A DNA stretch of 39,259 nt from positions 1 to 39,259 of the forward strand of contig QNFX01000019.1 of the NCBI GenBank assembly GCA_003650125.1, read 5' to 3'. Of this stretch, positions 11,273 through 35,240 are shown piece by piece. Numbering within the stretch: position 1 is the first letter of the stretch; each line of letters begins with the position of its first letter. The notes under the pieces are model-generated. The model searched no databases and had not been told where the DNA came from. It saw nothing but the letters and a program-made list of their open reading frames with translations. The position numbers and the translations under genes were made by a program. The stretch comes from Campylobacterota bacterium. Lineage in GTDB: Bacteria > Bdellovibrionota > Bacteriovoracia > Bacteriovoracales > Bacteriovoracaceae.

Positions 11273-11860
11273 TTATTTTTTACCGATGAGTGTGTCTGGT
11301 GTCAACGGTATCCAAATATTCCAATTACGCTTAATGGTTCGGTTGCGGCGATAGCTATGAAACTTAAGGTCACAGTGAGTGCATTCTTTGGCATAACTTA
11401 TTTCAATATTTCCAAAATAATTTTTTAGGTGAAGCATAGCAACGTCTTTTAAAGAAAAATAATATTTACCATTTTTTTCTTTGAAATAACTTCTTGGAAA
11501 ATAATTTAAAAATTCACTCGTAACCTCAAAGCAACAATTATTTATATGAGGGCCTATAAAGGCCTTATTAACACCGATGCTTTTTAAAATATCCTTTTTT
11601 AAAATACCCGACTGCAGGCCTCGCCATCCTGCATGAATGAAAGCATCACCTTGTGCTCCTATAAGCAAGATGGGCATACAATCGGCAGTAATAATGGCAA
11701 GATTATCTTTTGAGCTAGAAATCAACCCATCGGCCTGAACATCTCCAGATGAAACAATATTAGTTCCATGTACTTGGTTAATCTTTTTAAAATCAAAATT
11801 GGGGGGAGCATTAAAAACGGTGAATTGACCTTCGGGAAATTTCTTTTTAAAGATTTCCAT
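11273..11860 (-). CDS. pgeF: YfiH/PgeF-family protein (peptidoglycan editing factor, purine nucleoside phosphorylase-type fold)
   Basis: About 195 residues with the family hallmarks: QVHG, TADCMPILL, HAGWRGL, the IGPHIxxCCFEV segment, and a C-terminal CTHCDxxFHSYRRN. The Cys and His residues form the zinc site. Family members have been described as polyphenol oxidases, as purine-nucleoside-acting enzymes and, in E. coli, as preventing misincorporation of serine into peptidoglycan. The exact activity here is not decidable. I use the ATG at 11860; a TTG at 11875 would add five residues and lengthen the overlap with the upstream pseudouridine synthase gene. Neither has a clear ribosome site, so translation is probably coupled. 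Confidence 0.88.
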   Translation of the reverse strand: MEIFKKKFPEGQFTVFNAPPNFDFKKINQVHGTNIVSSGDVQADGLISSSKDNLAIITADCMPILLIGAQGDAFIHAGWRGLQSGILKKDILKSIGVNKAFIGPHINNCCFEVTSEFLNYFPRSYFKEKNGKYYFSLKDVAMLHLKNYFGNIEISYAKECTHCDLKFHSYRRNRTIKRNWNIWIPLTPDTLIGKK

Positions 11861-12857
11861 TTTGTGCCAGTTCAAGAACTTTTAAAAATATTTCAGGTTT
11901 CTCTGCCTCAAATTCCATTTCTTTCTTCGTGAAGGGGTGGATGAATTTTATTTTTTGGGCATGTAAAAAAGGGTAGGGGTAATCACCAATTAAGCTTTTA
12001 AAGGGGTCCCCAAGTCTTTGTAAATCTTGTTTTGGGTTGCCATATAGAGAATCACCAAGGACAGCATGTCTTAATTCTTGTGCCATATGAACTCTAATCT
12101 GATGAGTTCTTCCGGTTTCAAGTTTTATTTGAAGGTAAGTCATTTTCTCAAAAGTTTTTAAGACTTGATAATGGGTAATGGCCTCTTTACCATCTTTTAC
12201 ATTAGCGGCCATCTTAAGCCGATTGGTAGGATGCCTGGCAATTGTTGTAGTGATAGATCCTACGGGATTAATCTTCGTTCCCATCACGAGGGTATGATAA
12301 TACTTTTCAATTTGCCTTGAAGAAAAAAGCAGCATCAACTCTTCTAAACTCTTTTGATATTTGGCCATAATAATGAGGCCGGAAGTTCCCTTATCAAGTC
12401 TATGGGCCACCCCAGGTCTTTTGGCATCGGTCATTTCTTGCATTTTAGGATAGTGGTGTAAAATCGCATTAACGAGAGTTCCCGAGATATTTCCTGCCCC
12501 AGGATGAGTCACCATTCCCGCTTTTTTATTAATAACTATAAAGTGATCATCTTCAAAAATAATATCTAGAGGAATATTTTCTGCTACCGCTTTTTCCGGC
12601 AACGGGGGCGGAACCTTGACACAAATCTTGGTGCCAGGATTTGGCATCTTTCTAATTTCTAAGGTTACATCTGAGGTGATAGACCCATTTTGGAAGAGTT
12701 TTTTAAGCAATGATCGGCTTATGTGAGGGCATTTTGCCGCCAGAAAATGATCAAATCTTTTATATTCAAGAAGGTCTTCAGGGGTAACCTCAAGTTCGAT
12801 TTCGTCATCAATGATGGATTCAAGATTATCCTGCTCGTCTACCATGGTAATTGTCAT
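11847..12857 (-). CDS. rluD: RluA/RluD-family 23S rRNA pseudouridine synthase
   Basis: A 336-residue enzyme with an N-terminal S4 RNA-binding domain (about 30-85) and an RluA-type catalytic domain. The catalytic Asp lies in HRLDKGTSGL, and ETGRTHQIRVH is present towards the C-terminus. It isomerises specific uridines of large-subunit rRNA. The RluD assignment rather than another RluA-family member is based on S4 plus length only. An acidic stretch of about 25 residues precedes S4. It overlaps the start of pgeF, and the rluD-pgeF pairing is conserved in many bacteria. The start lacks a clear ribosome site; a second ATG four codons in is possible. Confidence 0.9.
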   Translation of the reverse strand: MTITMVDEQDNLESIIDDEIELEVTPEDLLEYKRFDHFLAAKCPHISRSLLKKLFQNGSITSDVTLEIRKMPNPGTKICVKVPPPLPEKAVAENIPLDIIFEDDHFIVINKKAGMVTHPGAGNISGTLVNAILHHYPKMQEMTDAKRPGVAHRLDKGTSGLIIMAKYQKSLEELMLLFSSRQIEKYYHTLVMGTKINPVGSITTTIARHPTNRLKMAANVKDGKEAITHYQVLKTFEKMTYLQIKLETGRTHQIRVHMAQELRHAVLGDSLYGNPKQDLQRLGDPFKSLIGDYPYPFLHAQKIKFIHPFTKKEMEFEAEKPEIFLKVLELAQNGNL

Positions 12858-12870
12858 GGTAGAGAACTTA

Positions 12871-21917: not shown

Positions 21918-22211
21918 ATGGATGAGAGATACTACGTTCCTAAATTGAATTATCGCGATACAAGTAAAACGCAATCGGGGCAGATATACCGAGAACTTCA
22001 GCAGACTCGTATCGATATGAATTACAACGCTGAAAAATTAAATGAATCTTTAAGGCCAAAAAGAGATTTAGATTCACCCTATCTTTCAGATCGAGAAGGT
22101 TACACTCCAAGAATTAAAGGTTCACTGGATGAAGGGAATTGGAAGTATGTACCACCTCTTCCTCAAGAGAAATTTGTTTACCTAAATATGAGAAAACTAG
22201 ATATTGTTTAA
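21918..22211 (+). CDS. Small hydrophilic protein of unknown function
   Basis: A 97-residue protein rich in Tyr, Arg, Asp and Pro, with no membrane segment, signal peptide or cysteine. It looks partly disordered. The ATG is preceded immediately by TTAGGG, a poorly spaced ribosome site, and a TATATT hexamer lies at 21887-21892 without a good -35. It lies 60 bp after the hydrolase and 48 bp before the bufferin-like gene. I recognise no family. Codon use and the uninterrupted frame make it a likely gene, but a functional link to either neighbour is not shown. Confidence 0.55.
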   Translation: MDERYYVPKLNYRDTSKTQSGQIYRELQQTRIDMNYNAEKLNESLRPKRDLDSPYLSDREGYTPRIKGSLDEGNWKYVPPLPQEKFVYLNMRKLDIV

Positions 22212-22232
22212 TGGCATCTCCTCTGATTTAAT
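22204..22232 (+). promoter_or_regulatory. Candidate promoter of the bufferin-like operon
   Basis: TTGTTT (22204-22209), 17 bp, TTTAAT (22227-22232), predicting a start near 22239 and a 20-nt leader carrying AAAGGAG. The -10 sits inside an imperfect palindrome running from TGATT (22224-22228) to AATCA (22244-22248), centred on GGCC, which could be an operator. Both elements are tentative. Confidence 0.35.
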
Positions 22233-22259
22233 TGGCCATATTTAATCAAAGGAGAAATT

Positions 22260-22517
22260 TTGAGTACAAAAGCAATATTGGCAGGAGCTGCATTAACAGG
22301 ACTACTTTTGGGGATGAGTGGATGTTCATCATCTTCAACCAACTCAGGTAGTGAAGTTGTTGGTGAGTGTCATGGGATGAACTCTTGTAAGTCGACTGGG
22401 GCCTGTGGTGGAAAAGGTCATTCCTGTGCAGGGCAAAATAAATGTAAAGGTCAGGGTTGGTTAAAATTATCCAAGAAAGACTGCCTAGCTAAAAAAGGTA
22501 CCTTTAAAGAACAATAG
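22260..22517 (+). CDS. Bufferin-like Cys-rich precursor peptide, lipoprotein type
   Basis: An 85-residue peptide. The signal sequence ends in a lipobox-like GMSGC with Cys22, followed by a Ser-rich spacer. The core has six cysteines (37, 43, 49, 56, 62, 75) in two related units, C-H-G-M-N-S-C-K and C-A-G-Q-N-K-C-K-G, then GQGW and a terminal DCLAKKGTF. This C-x-G-x-N-x-C-K pattern is the one I associate with precursors encoded next to DUF692/MNIO enzymes. Characterised bufferins are periplasmic peptides whose cysteines are converted to thiooxazoles and which buffer copper. The start is TTG with a strong AAAGGAG 5 nt upstream. Export plus a predicted lipid anchor would place it on the envelope. 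The metal and the modification are inferred from the neighbours. Confidence 0.85.
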   Translation: MSTKAILAGAALTGLLLGMSGCSSSSTNSGSEVVGECHGMNSCKSTGACGGKGHSCAGQNKCKGQGWLKLSKKDCLAKKGTFKEQ

Positions 22518-22534
22518 ACTAAAGGCCAGCTATT

Positions 22535-22558
22535 ATGATTTTATACGCCAATGTGTAA
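22535..22558 (+). other. Seven-codon micro-ORF overlapping the DUF692 gene start
   Basis: ATG at 22535 followed by six codons (M-I-L-Y-A-N-V) and a TAA at 22556-22558, in a different frame from the DUF692 gene, whose ATG is at 22551. AAAGG lies about 9 nt before the micro-ORF ATG, whereas the DUF692 ATG has no ribosome site of its own at a normal distance. Ribosomes finishing the micro-ORF could restart at the enzyme gene. It may equally be a chance frame. Confidence 0.3.
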
Positions 22559-22568
22559 CATTGGCGTA
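22544..22568 (+). promoter_or_regulatory. Perfect 10-bp hairpin over the DUF692 start codon
   Basis: TACGCCAATG (22544-22553), a 5-nt loop and its exact reverse complement (22559-22568). The last three bases of the left arm are the ATG of the DUF692 gene. No T-run follows, so it is not an intrinsic terminator. It would hide the enzyme start in the mRNA and could protect the upstream peptide message from 3' decay, giving more precursor than enzyme. Confidence 0.65.
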
Positions 22569-23369
22569 GGTCTTAGGGCCGAGCACTATTCATATCTGGA
22601 AGCAAGGCCTCAAACTGAGCTCAAATGGTTTGAGGTTATTTCAGAAAATCATCTTAATTCTAGAGGAAGACCGTGGGAAATTCTCCATACTATGCGAGAA
22701 AAGTTCCCTCTTTCTTTTCATGGTGTATCTCTAAATATAGGCTCTTATGCTCCTCTAGATTTTGAGTATTTAAAAAAATTAAAATATATGATTGAAGTTT
22801 TTGATCCTTTTCGTGTTTCGGATCATCTATGCTTCACTGGCGTTCCAGGGGCCAATATTCATAATCTATTACCCTTGCCTTATAATGATAAAACGCTAAT
22901 TCACCTCACTGAAAAGTTAGATCAGGTTCAATCATTTTTAGACAGACCTTTTATTTTAGAAAACCTCTCGGCCTATATAGATTTTCAGGAATCGACTTAT
23001 ACTGAGTGGGAATTTATAAAAAAATTAGTTGAAAGGTCGGGCTGTAAAATTTTATTAGATGTGAACAATATCTATGTAAATGCAGTTAACCATAAATTTG
23101 ATCCTAAGATTTATATTGATCATATCCCCAAAGATAAAATTGAAGAGATCCACTTGGCCGGTTATTCCGATATGGGTGATTTTTTATTTGATACACATTC
23201 AAACCCCGTATTTCCTCCAGTATGGGATCTCTTTTCTTATGTCATAAAAGATTTAAAAGATGTTCCAGTTTTAATTGAATGGGATGATGATATTCCAGAA
23301 TTTGCCCGTCTAGAAGCAGAGGCCTTGAAAGCAAAAAAAATATGGGAGTCTCACCATGCTCGGAATTAA
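22551..23369 (+). CDS. DUF692 / MNIO-family peptide-modifying enzyme (BufB-like)
   Basis: A 272-residue TIM-barrel protein of the multinuclear non-heme iron-dependent oxidative enzyme family. Recognisable segments in order are IGVGLRAEHY (start), WFEVISENH, SFHGVSLNIGS, RVSDHLCF, LENLS, LLDVNNIYVNAVNH, EIHLAGY, FDTHS and IEWDDDIP. The His, Glu, Asp and Asn in these are the usual iron-cluster ligands. Characterised members modify cysteines of a partner peptide, for example to thiooxazoles or oxazolone/thioamide groups. The adjacent Cys-rich peptide is the obvious substrate. The ATG at 22551 fits the family start but has no ribosome site and lies inside a perfect hairpin. It overlaps the next gene by 14 bp. 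Confidence 0.93.
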   Translation: MCNIGVGLRAEHYSYLEARPQTELKWFEVISENHLNSRGRPWEILHTMREKFPLSFHGVSLNIGSYAPLDFEYLKKLKYMIEVFDPFRVSDHLCFTGVPGANIHNLLPLPYNDKTLIHLTEKLDQVQSFLDRPFILENLSAYIDFQESTYTEWEFIKKLVERSGCKILLDVNNIYVNAVNHKFDPKIYIDHIPKDKIEEIHLAGYSDMGDFLFDTHSNPVFPPVWDLFSYVIKDLKDVPVLIEWDDDIPEFARLEAEALKAKKIWESHHARN

Positions 23370-24120
23370 GAGCTCACAGGTACTTTTAGGCAAAAGTATT
23401 CTTACGGGAAATCCATCAGAAGATCTGCTTAAAAATATTATTCCTGGTGGGAAGTTAGACAAAAAAAGAGCTCTTGAAGTTTACCATGATGATTATGTGG
23501 CAAGACTTAGCTCGGTAATGGCGGATAACTTTGAGGGAACTCATGCTTTTTTAGGTGAGGAACTATTTTTCGCACTGTGTCTCGAGTATCTAGACCACTA
23601 CCCATCCACTTCTCCAGATCTAGGTGAGTATGGAAAATACCTAGATAAGTTTATGAAAAATCACGACTTGGGTAAGGAATATCCCTTTTTACCGGAACTT
23701 TGCAGATTAGATATGGAGTTTATGCGCCTTTTTCATTTGCCCAAGGAAAAAAAGATAGACCCCGATAGGTTAAAGGCCCATGAGAATTTGTCTCTGGCCA
23801 AGTTTACATTAGTCAAGGCCCTCTACTTGCAAAAGTCTAAGTATCCAATATATAAAATCTGGGACTTGAAGAACCTTTCAGACGCTGAAAGGGAGGACGT
23901 AGAACTAGATTGGAGTGGGGCCGAAAATTTTTGTCTATATAAAAATATGGATGGAATTAAGGTGCAATTTTTAACTCCAGAGCAAGTGGATGTCCTTGAG
24001 AAAATAAAGCTAGGCCTTAACTTAGACTCAGCTTTAGAAAACTCAGAGATTGATCCTCTAAGAGTTCAGGAATTATTTGGATTTATTTCTACTAGTGGAA
24101 TCTTAATAGATATTATTTAA
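23356..24120 (+). CDS. DUF2063-type partner protein of the MNIO enzyme (BufC-like)
   Basis: A 254-residue protein. The N-terminal region (about 30-110) matches the DUF2063 pattern: a YxxxYxxRL segment (here VYHDDYVARLSSVM), a bulky FEGTHAFLG turn, and LCLEYLDHYPSTSPDLGEYG. The remainder is less conserved, with a C-terminal segment that fits the winged-helix-like end of such proteins. In characterised systems this protein presents the leader part of the precursor to the MNIO enzyme. GGGAG lies 7 nt before the ATG. It overlaps the enzyme gene and is followed after only 4 bp by the E1-rhodanese gene, so the bufferin genes and the thiamine genes probably share a transcript. Confidence 0.87.
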   Translation: MLGIKSSQVLLGKSILTGNPSEDLLKNIIPGGKLDKKRALEVYHDDYVARLSSVMADNFEGTHAFLGEELFFALCLEYLDHYPSTSPDLGEYGKYLDKFMKNHDLGKEYPFLPELCRLDMEFMRLFHLPKEKKIDPDRLKAHENLSLAKFTLVKALYLQKSKYPIYKIWDLKNLSDAEREDVELDWSGAENFCLYKNMDGIKVQFLTPEQVDVLEKIKLGLNLDSALENSEIDPLRVQELFGFISTSGILIDII

Positions 24121-32636: not shown

Positions 32637-35240
32637 ATGAAAAAACTTACTACTAAAGAAATCAGACAGGCCTTTTTGGAATACTTCCAGGGAGAAGATC
32701 ATCAAAAAATTGGATCCTCTTCGGTGGTTCCTAAAAATGATCCAACCCTGCTTTTTATTAATTCGGGGATGGCCCCGCTTAAAAAATATTTTCTCGGTAA
32801 AGAAAGTCCTCCTTATCCTCGTTTGGTGAACTATCAACCTTGTATTCGGACTAAAGATATAGATGATGTTGGTGACCGCCATCACCTGACTTTTTTTGAA
32901 ATGCTTGGTTCTTGGTCAATTGGAGATTACTATAAAGAAAAGGCGGTAGAGCTGGCCTTTGATCTTTTGGTTAACAAGCTTGGCTTTGATCCGCAAAAAC
33001 TTTATGTCACAGTCTTTGAAGGAAATAAAAAACTAGGTCTCAAAGGCGATGAAGAGTCTGCTAAGGCCTGGGAAAAAATGGGTATTCCCACTCAGCAAAT
33101 CGTAAGCTTAGGTGCCGATAATTTTTGGGGGCCGGCCGGCGAAACAGGGCCTTGCGGGCCTTGTACTGAGGTGTTTTTTGATTGTGGTGAATCCTTTGGT
33201 CCTAAATGGAATCCAGGAGAAGAGTTTATTACCACTGGCAGATATATTGAGATTTGGAATGCCGGTGTTTTTATGGAACTTAATAAAGAGGCAGATGGTT
33301 CTTACAAACCACTGCCTTTAAAAAGTGTGGATACAGGGTCAGGACTTGAACGAATGGCGATGATTATGAATGGCCTAAACTCAGTCTATGATACAGATTT
33401 ATTTGTTCCCATCGTGAACAAGGTGAACGAATTATTTAGTCCTGATGAAGAAACTACTTATATGATTTCTGATCATATAAGGGCCTCGGCCTTTATTATG
33501 TCAGAAGGAGTAGCGCCATCTAATGAAGGTCAAGGTTATATTCCTAGAAGATTACTTAGAAAATGTATTGGTGCCTTGGCCTCACATGGACATACTACGA
33601 TAGATTTTAATCCTCTCTTAGATATCATTAGGGATTCCTTAGGAGAGTTTTATCCCTCTCTAATAGCAAATTTTGAATTTGTGCAATATGAGATTAAAAC
33701 AGAAATCGATGAATTTCTTCCGCTTATTCACGATGGAATTAAACGAATCGACTCTCTAATACCGAGTATTAAAGATAAAACTTTTCCTGGGAATGAGGCC
33801 TTTGAGCTGGTGACTACTTTTGGTGTGCCCCATGAAGTTATAAAGGCCCATCTAGATAAATTGGGATATGGATTGGACGAGGCAGCTTTTCAGCAATGTT
33901 TTGAAAATCATCGTAAAATATCTCGAGTGGTAAAAGGTAGTATGGCAGTAGGAGAGGATATGGATATTGAGGCCCTTTTATCTGAATTTCCTGCAACTAT
34001 CTTTGATGGATACCTTGAACTTAAATCTAAAAGTCAGGTCTTAGGACTTATTAAAGATAATAACTTAGTGGATAAAGCAACGGGAGAGTTTTTCTTTGTC
34101 GCCCAGGAAACTCCTTTTTATGGTGAATCTGGAGGGCAAGTTGGAGATAGAGGAAGTGCTCTTGTGGGAGATCTATCTTTTGAAGTCTTAGACTGTCAGA
34201 AATTTGGAAAAGTGTTTCTTCATCGTGCCATCTTAAATCAAGGTGAAGTAAAAGTAGGCGATAAGATCTCACTTTCAGTTGATGAAGAGACAAGATTTAA
34301 CACCAGAAGAAATCACTCAGCGACCCATTTGCTCCATGCTGCCCTTCGAGAAGTGGTAGGACATCATGCCCTTCAAAAAGGATCTTATGTTAACTCTGAA
34401 AGACTTCGTTTTGATTTTCAAAACAAATCAGGTCTTAGTGAGGTTGAATTAGAAGAGATAGAATCTTTAGTTAATAAGTGGATCATGAAAAACAATGAAA
34501 ATGAGACCTTGGAAACTGATTATAATAGCGCTCTAAAACATGGCGCCTTGGCCTTGTTTGGTGAAAATTATGGCGCACAAGTTAGAGTGGTTAAGTTTGG
34601 TGATTCAGTAGAACTTTGTGGTGGAACTCATGCCAAAAATACCGGAGAGATTGGGCTTTTTATCATTACTTCTGAGTCTAGTGTGGCCAAAGGGGTGCGT
34701 CGGATAGAAGCAGTAACCGGAATGGCCGCATTAAAACTTTATCAACAAAAATCAAGAGTGCTAAAAGAGTCAGCAAACATACTAGGAACTGGAGTAGAAA
34801 ATATTCCTGGAAGAATTTTAGACCTTAAGAAAAAATCAAAACCTAAAAAAGAAGAAAGCAAAATATCTATTGGCAGTGTTGACTATCTTGCAACTAAAGA
34901 GTTTGAAGTGAATGGCAAGATATTTTTTCTCGGCCACATTGATCTTGAGGGAGATACCTTAAAATCTCTTGGTGATCAATTAATTGAAAAGAAAGAAATG
35001 GATATGGTTTGCTTGATGGGGGCATCTCAAAATTCTGTTAGGGCCTTTGTCTGGGTAAAAAAAGATCTTAGTAAAAAAGTCAAGGCCGGTGACTTATTAA
35101 AAGAAATTATAAAACCCTTAAATGGTAGAGGCGGTGGAAAACCACATTTTGCTCAAGGTGGCGGCGGAGAAGCTTCAGATATTGCAAAAGTTTTTAAGCA
35201 CCTGTTAGAGGTTCAAGAATTTATTTCTAAGAAATTGTGA
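32637..35240 (+). CDS. alaS: Alanyl-tRNA synthetase
   Basis: An 867-residue class II synthetase. The catalytic core has SSSVVPKNDPTLLF and NSGMAPLKKYF. The editing domain carries HSATH (His560 and His564) and CGGTH (Cys661, His665). The C-terminal C-Ala/DHHA1 part ends with GRGGGKPHFAQGGG. It charges tRNA-Ala and clears Ser and Gly mischarging. It has no strong ribosome site of its own and follows the MAPEG gene by 4 bp. Its final 36 bp are overlapped by the CheW-like gene on the other strand. Confidence 0.97.
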   Translation: MKKLTTKEIRQAFLEYFQGEDHQKIGSSSVVPKNDPTLLFINSGMAPLKKYFLGKESPPYPRLVNYQPCIRTKDIDDVGDRHHLTFFEMLGSWSIGDYYKEKAVELAFDLLVNKLGFDPQKLYVTVFEGNKKLGLKGDEESAKAWEKMGIPTQQIVSLGADNFWGPAGETGPCGPCTEVFFDCGESFGPKWNPGEEFITTGRYIEIWNAGVFMELNKEADGSYKPLPLKSVDTGSGLERMAMIMNGLNSVYDTDLFVPIVNKVNELFSPDEETTYMISDHIRASAFIMSEGVAPSNEGQGYIPRRLLRKCIGALASHGHTTIDFNPLLDIIRDSLGEFYPSLIANFEFVQYEIKTEIDEFLPLIHDGIKRIDSLIPSIKDKTFPGNEAFELVTTFGVPHEVIKAHLDKLGYGLDEAAFQQCFENHRKISRVVKGSMAVGEDMDIEALLSEFPATIFDGYLELKSKSQVLGLIKDNNLVDKATGEFFFVAQETPFYGESGGQVGDRGSALVGDLSFEVLDCQKFGKVFLHRAILNQGEVKVGDKISLSVDEETRFNTRRNHSATHLLHAALREVVGHHALQKGSYVNSERLRFDFQNKSGLSEVELEEIESLVNKWIMKNNENETLETDYNSALKHGALALFGENYGAQVRVVKFGDSVELCGGTHAKNTGEIGLFIITSESSVAKGVRRIEAVTGMAALKLYQQKSRVLKESANILGTGVENIPGRILDLKKKSKPKKEESKISIGSVDYLATKEFEVNGKIFFLGHIDLEGDTLKSLGDQLIEKKEMDMVCLMGASQNSVRAFVWVKKDLSKKVKAGDLLKEIIKPLNGRGGGKPHFAQGGGGEASDIAKVFKHLLEVQEFISKKL

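Follow-up and report, generated by a model that had tools for sequence, protein, structure and literature searches.

A hairpin over the maturase start codon of a bufferin operon and its possible place among precursor-maturase junctions

The start codon of the bufferin maturase gene bufB is enclosed in an 11-bp hairpin, and this hairpin is unusual for its own site. We hypothesize, with a confidence that stops just short of even, that the start is limited by the hairpin and served by translational coupling, such that more precursor than enzyme would be made. Bufferins are small copper-binding peptides that require a maturase, a member of the MNIO family (formerly DUF692), and the demand for the peptide should far exceed the demand for the enzyme.

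The bufferin operon and the hairpin at its second gene

The window, 39,259 nucleotides in length, is an entire contig from an assembly of 2.6 Mb in 103 contigs. Profile scores and gene order identify a bufferin operon, bufA2-bufB-bufC, at positions 22260-24120 on the plus strand. Within the genus, the sample consists of two genomes, this one and one congener with a BufB protein that is 89% identical. The features discussed below are as follows.

22217-22255, plus strand: possible hairpin sequestering the bufA Shine-Dalgarno sequence, with weak statistics (P = 0.085 in this genome, 0.02 in the congener)
22260-22517, plus strand: bufA2-like precursor gene with a TTG start, a lipoprotein-like signal and a Cys-rich core (NCBIfam NF050166)
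22521-22525, plus strand: AAAGG, Shine-Dalgarno-like, 9 nt before ATG 22535, also in the congener
22535-22558, plus strand: 7-codon micro-ORF (MILYANV) with stop TAA; the congener has the start and lacks the stop
22544-22554, plus strand: left arm of the 11-bp stem, including the bufB ATG at 22551-22553
22551-23369, plus strand: bufB, MNIO bufferin maturase, ATG start without a Shine-Dalgarno sequence, in AUGUG context (Pfam PF05114, 328.5 bits)
22558-22568, plus strand: right arm of the 11-bp stem, within bufB codons 3-6
23356-24120, plus strand: bufC-like DUF2063 partner, overlapping the bufB end (PF09836, 53.3 bits, cut-off 27.2)

The precursor scores just below the cut-off of the NCBIfam BufA2 model NF050166 (58.3 bits against 60; E 6.3e-16), the bufB product scores above that of NF050167 (334.2 bits against 310) and the DUF2063 partner scores below the NCBIfam HvfC cut-off. 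The genes bufA and bufB share one frame with two stops between them, TAG 22515 and TGA 22536, both of which are also present in the congener.

The perfect 10-bp inverted repeat with a 5-nt loop described in the original prediction is exact, with the arms TACGCCAATG (22544-22553) and CATTGGCGTA (22559-22568), and T22554 and A22558 form a further pair, which gives a stem at 22544-22568 of 11 bp with the 3-nt loop GTA. The bufB ATG lies in the left arm, as had been claimed, and it has no ribosome site of its own: there is no Shine-Dalgarno sequence at the proper distance from ATG 22551, and the AAAGG is located 25 nt upstream. The stem alone has a minimum free energy of -14.6 kcal/mol, which was equalled in none of 200 dinucleotide shuffles. 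Folding of the region from -16 to +25 gave -16.4 kcal/mol, the second strongest of 420 gene starts collected from the window and 380 kb of the same genome (mean -3.2 kcal/mol, sd 2.7), a rank that is approximate because the starts were picked by a simple rule. When the 33-nt gap between bufA and bufB was shuffled and the bufB codons were left untouched, an equal or stronger fold was obtained in 5 of 4000 cases (P = 0.00125). Among starts located no more than 40 nt after a gene on the same strand, folds of -9 or below were found in 5 of 70 without a Shine-Dalgarno sequence, bufB being one of these, versus 1 of 114 with such a sequence (Fisher 0.03).

Two perfect stems of at least 10 bp with loops of 3-8 nt are present in the window, where 20 Markov shuffles gave 0.45 on average, and the 380 kb contain 13, none of which covers an ORF start. 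By arithmetic from these counts, the 419 kb sampled should contain about 0.4 stems that overlap a start, and a single one genome-wide is therefore not surprising. A perfect 10-bp hairpin with a 5-nt loop is also found at 33457-33481, inside an ORF of 867 amino acids.

Since the bufB start has no Shine-Dalgarno sequence and is placed inside the stem, free 30S subunits should rarely initiate there. The precursor would be translated from a good site, AAAGGAG ahead of its TTG start, and BufB would be produced for the most part by ribosomes that have already loaded onto the message, which may arrive from bufA directly or via the AAAGG and ATG 22535. The arriving ribosomes would open the stem and then start at AUG 22551, and the outcome would be much precursor and little BufB. 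The stem, the missing Shine-Dalgarno sequence, the gene order and the unusual fold of the start region are read from the sequence, and coupling, repression and the protein ratio are what we infer. Termination at the stop of the micro-ORF is not required for this scheme and is unlikely to be a conserved part of it.

A second structure may be located upstream of the precursor gene. The hairpin at 22217-22255 in the bufA leader can be folded in both genomes of the genus, with different right arms and a two-row consensus of -4.9, and its conserved left arm could equally be read as a -10 promoter region. No common structure was seen by eye in the printed bufA leaders of other genera.

The start region in the congener and in the paralog

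The gap between bufA and bufB has the same length in the congener, with differences at 9 of its 33 bases. Both the AAAGG and the upstream ATG are kept, bufB starts at the same position with a GTG codon, and the chance that both the AAAGG and ATG 22535 stay intact despite these differences is P = 0.05. In the stem, four changes fall in the left arm and one in the right, which leaves 10 of the 11 pairs, three of them G-U, and one pair broken. Retention of 10 pairs has P = 0.02 under random left-arm changes, but the region folds at -9.8 kcal/mol, no better than shuffles of the congener's own gap (P = 0.37, z -0.9), and the two nulls thus disagree on whether the stem is conserved. No two-sided, pair-preserving changes were found between this genome and the one congener.

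A constrained start hairpin can look quite different. The gene for an RluD-like pseudouridine synthase (11847-12870 in the window, minus strand, start at 12857) has no Shine-Dalgarno sequence, begins 13 nt after the upstream gene and has its ATG inside a perfect 9-bp hairpin, TCTACCATG-8-CATGGTAGA, which is the strongest start fold of all (rank 1 of 420) and is unchanged at every base in the congener, the noncoding arm included. This hairpin is missing at all 24 readable loci of other genera (28 examined), four of which have different stems of at least 8 bp near the gene start. The bufB hairpin does not show this type of preservation.

The same genome contains a second bufB without bufA (G000:C4:71600-72385), the product of which is 74% identical. 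It is located after a gene for what we read from the protein as an ABC-F-like factor, and a similar TTTTATA stretch is present upstream of its start. A fold comparable to that at the bufB start was not found there (P = 0.58).

Taken together, the hypothesis of a coupled, hairpin-limited start is supported by the second rank among the 420 starts, the low probability of the fold at its own site, the missing Shine-Dalgarno sequence, the larger share of strong folds among closely following starts that lack one, the kept AAAGG and ATG, the 10 of 11 retained pairs and the hairpins at other junctions described below. It is weakened by the chance-level fold and the broken pair in the congener, the lack of two-sided pair-preserving changes, the contrast with the fully preserved hairpin at 12857, the absence of such a fold at the paralog and the tight junctions at 20 of 23 loci in the family.

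A serious but less probable rival explanation is that the right arm is simply part of the bufB coding sequence and that the left arm has drifted, or been templated from a quasi-palindrome, to the perfect complement in this genome only, with little or no effect. Template-switch correction would turn the arm differences of a quasi-palindrome into Watson-Crick pairs, and this is the pattern seen: all four left-arm differences are Watson-Crick pairs here and none are in the congener. The congener fold at chance level, the number of start-overlapping stems expected by arithmetic, a nearly identical right arm without a partner in the paralog, and a right arm largely shared with the congener as well all agree with such an origin. 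Against it stand the probability and the rank of the fold at this particular site, and a stem of -14.6 kcal/mol over a start codon should affect initiation whatever its origin.

Junctions in other bufferin operons and further readings of the hairpin

In the family, 20 of 23 readable precursor loci have only 4-26 nt from the bufA stop to the codon before the conserved GxGLR segment of bufB, frequently with TAATG or GTGA overlaps. The same distance is 42 nt in this genome and its congener and 81 nt at locus L008, where a textbook intrinsic terminator, AAAAAAGGCCCCGA-TCTT-TCGGGGCCTTTTTT, lies between bufA2 and bufB, right before the bufB start; the BufB protein of L008 is 61% identical to that of this genome. 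At L008, the end of the U run is separated by 2 nt from the first ATG at which bufB could start, with hardly any room for a ribosome site. The absence of both hairpin and micro-ORF from related genomes, which the original prediction had named as evidence against itself, is thus what is seen in the other genera of the family with bufB at the bufA stop, and is half true within the genus.

A wider survey covered 125 distinct bufB loci after removal of 8 duplicate or re-fetched ones. Seventy-one have a Cys-rich precursor upstream, although some of the accepted precursors are possibly false (for example at L137 and L161), and 54 of the 125 were left out since the 400 nt upstream contain no Cys-rich ORF (at least 5 Cys, motif). 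Forty further loci were taken only where they scored above the family cut-off, and places with lower scores were not included unless they belonged to the own family. Hairpins were called terminator-like if 5 or more of 8 bases after a stem of -7 kcal/mol or lower were T.

The gap between precursor and bufB is shorter than 40 nt at 34 of the 71 loci and longer at 37, a cut that was set post hoc, after the first loci had been seen. Terminator-like hairpins were identified in 17 of the 37 long gaps and in none of the 34 short ones, the latter being partly trivial because there is little room in a short gap. Folds better than dinucleotide shuffles (P <= 0.05) were obtained for 22 of the 37 long gaps, which include that of this genome and exclude that of the congener. 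For comparison, terminator-like hairpins are present in 8 of the 74 gaps of 31-170 nt between ORFs on the same strand in this genome, a significantly lower share than 17 of 37 (Fisher 6.6e-5), given a baseline from one genome only and survey loci that are phylogenetically non-independent. Among the loci added after the cut had been set (L120-L187; 68 loci, 35 with a precursor), terminator-like hairpins are present in 11 of the 23 long gaps and in none of the 12 short ones. The junction between bufB and bufC is 7 nt or less, or overlapping, in 48 of the 49 that could be tested (of 52), with a terminator-like hairpin in one. Any special structure therefore belongs between the genes for peptide and enzyme rather than between those for enzyme and partner.

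On the basis of these junctions, we tentatively suggest that bufferin operons in several phyla repeatedly carry a dosage device where precursor and maturase genes meet, either as a bufB start at the bufA stop or as a partial terminator or hairpin in the gap, and that in this genus the device may have shifted to the start codon of the maturase gene, where a stem supplied by a short initiation site upstream would limit translation. A terminator between bufA and bufB may also signal separate transcription units. For this class of junction, the sequences can reasonably be read as "much peptide, little enzyme", and that part of the original prediction fits a start that is hidden in a hairpin, has no Shine-Dalgarno sequence and would be used in a limited, coupled manner; the restart from the micro-ORF, which was the other part, finds no support. 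The recurrent pattern merits a proper survey, and the hairpin itself is ordinary in kind. Should the hairpins at these junctions truly act as attenuators, the ratio of peptide to enzyme would be measurable and tunable at one place, which would be of importance to the bufferin operon family more than to general biology.

The junctions also bear on whether the stem could act mainly on the transcript, serving as a processing site or as a barrier at the 3' end, so that a stable bufA message would remain although transcription is not intrinsically terminated there. Many other bufferin operons, L008 among them, have a terminator or a strong hairpin between these two genes, which is in line with this idea, as is the terminator between the precursor and enzyme genes of the microcin C operon (PMC6495379). 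We nevertheless consider it unlikely, since ribosomes would melt the stem, which spans a start codon. The original prediction had the hairpin cap the precursor message, but no U tract is found 3' of the stem, where the next letters are GGTCTTAGG, and neither the terminator scan nor the terminator-like criterion of the survey identifies one here; the hairpin is therefore not an intrinsic terminator.

It is very improbable that stalling or restart at the micro-ORF sets the output of BufB. The 7-codon micro-ORF with its AAAGG is present as predicted, although it ends 5 nt beyond the end of the bufB ATG (ATG TGT AA) and not three. The AAAGG and ATG 22535 are found in both genomes, the TAA at 22556-22558 is located at the bufB start in the context AUGUGUAA in this genome, and restart can benefit from termination beside an AUGUG start (PMC9841429). 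But the stop is CAA in the congener, where the frame continues into bufB out of frame, and every codon change alters the residue. Of the 420 gene starts, 17 have a micro-ORF that is led by a Shine-Dalgarno sequence and terminates no more than 12 nt away, as do 5 of the 155 starts without a Shine-Dalgarno sequence, bufB included. The idea of a sensing leader fares no better, given the lack of conserved codons, a palindrome that is unique in the genome and no Rfam match in the window, with only chance-level matches at 22150-22650. On the whole, the hairpin half of the earlier interpretation is plausible on sequence grounds, and the half concerning micro-ORF restart and sensing is not supported.

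The perfect 25-bp inverted repeat might in principle be a palindromic operator or a dispersed repeat, which is more improbable still with one exact copy in the genome and four copies at 3 mismatches versus two in a reversed control. The changes between bufA and bufB (22515-22553) look conservative when the congener is compared with this genome. Least credible of all is initiation of BufB at ATG 22535 with a +1 shift into the bufB frame: the distance of 16 nt from one start to the other is the same in both genomes and the upstream reading in the bufB frame looks conservative by eye (TKGQLL*FYTPM / TKGRLL*LYASV), but the distribution of changes over codon positions 1/2/3 (4/1/5) does not reach significance, there is no slippery site or conserved stop and the ATG or GTG at 22551 suffices as a start. 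A frameshift relic was also rejected, as alignment to the paralog would, in our reading, bring the upstream start even more out of frame.

Comparison with known systems

The operon agrees in gene content, gene order and family scores with the bufferin operons bufA-bufB-bufC in a survey of MNIO clusters (PMC12452194), the main text of which does not discuss the structure of the junction and contains the words "terminator" and "hairpin" 0 times. Our literature search, the coverage of which excluded most subscription journals, retrieved no paper on the bufA-bufB junction.

The bufB start is AUGUG in this genome and in the paralog and GUGUG in the congener, and thus resembles the ambiguous AUGUG and GUGUG starts reported to depend on the placement of the Shine-Dalgarno sequence and to permit restart after a nearby stop (PMC9841429). 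The bufB motif arises from the second codon for Cys (TGT or TGC), the Shine-Dalgarno sequence is at the wrong distance, and any ambiguity is putative here.

In the microcin C operon, a terminator between mccA and mccB is reported along with a short transcript on northern blots (PMC6495379). The order is the same, a gene for a RiPP precursor, a hairpin and a gene for the modifying enzyme, but the microcin C element is a transcription terminator and the precursor-only transcript is microcin C's, whereas the bufferin stem has no U tract and covers the start of the enzyme gene.

Also similar to the coupled start that we propose are the RNA-unfolding and scanning models of translational coupling, as reviewed in PMC12548453, with which it shares a structured downstream start, the lack of an own Shine-Dalgarno sequence and a location close after the upstream gene. 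It differs in the 33 nt from the bufA stop to the bufB start, which is longer than usual, and in a micro-ORF that is led by a Shine-Dalgarno sequence and not conserved, and coupling in bufB is a prediction. Whether through coupling or through terminators like that of microcin C, the mechanism at bufferin junctions would follow known ones.
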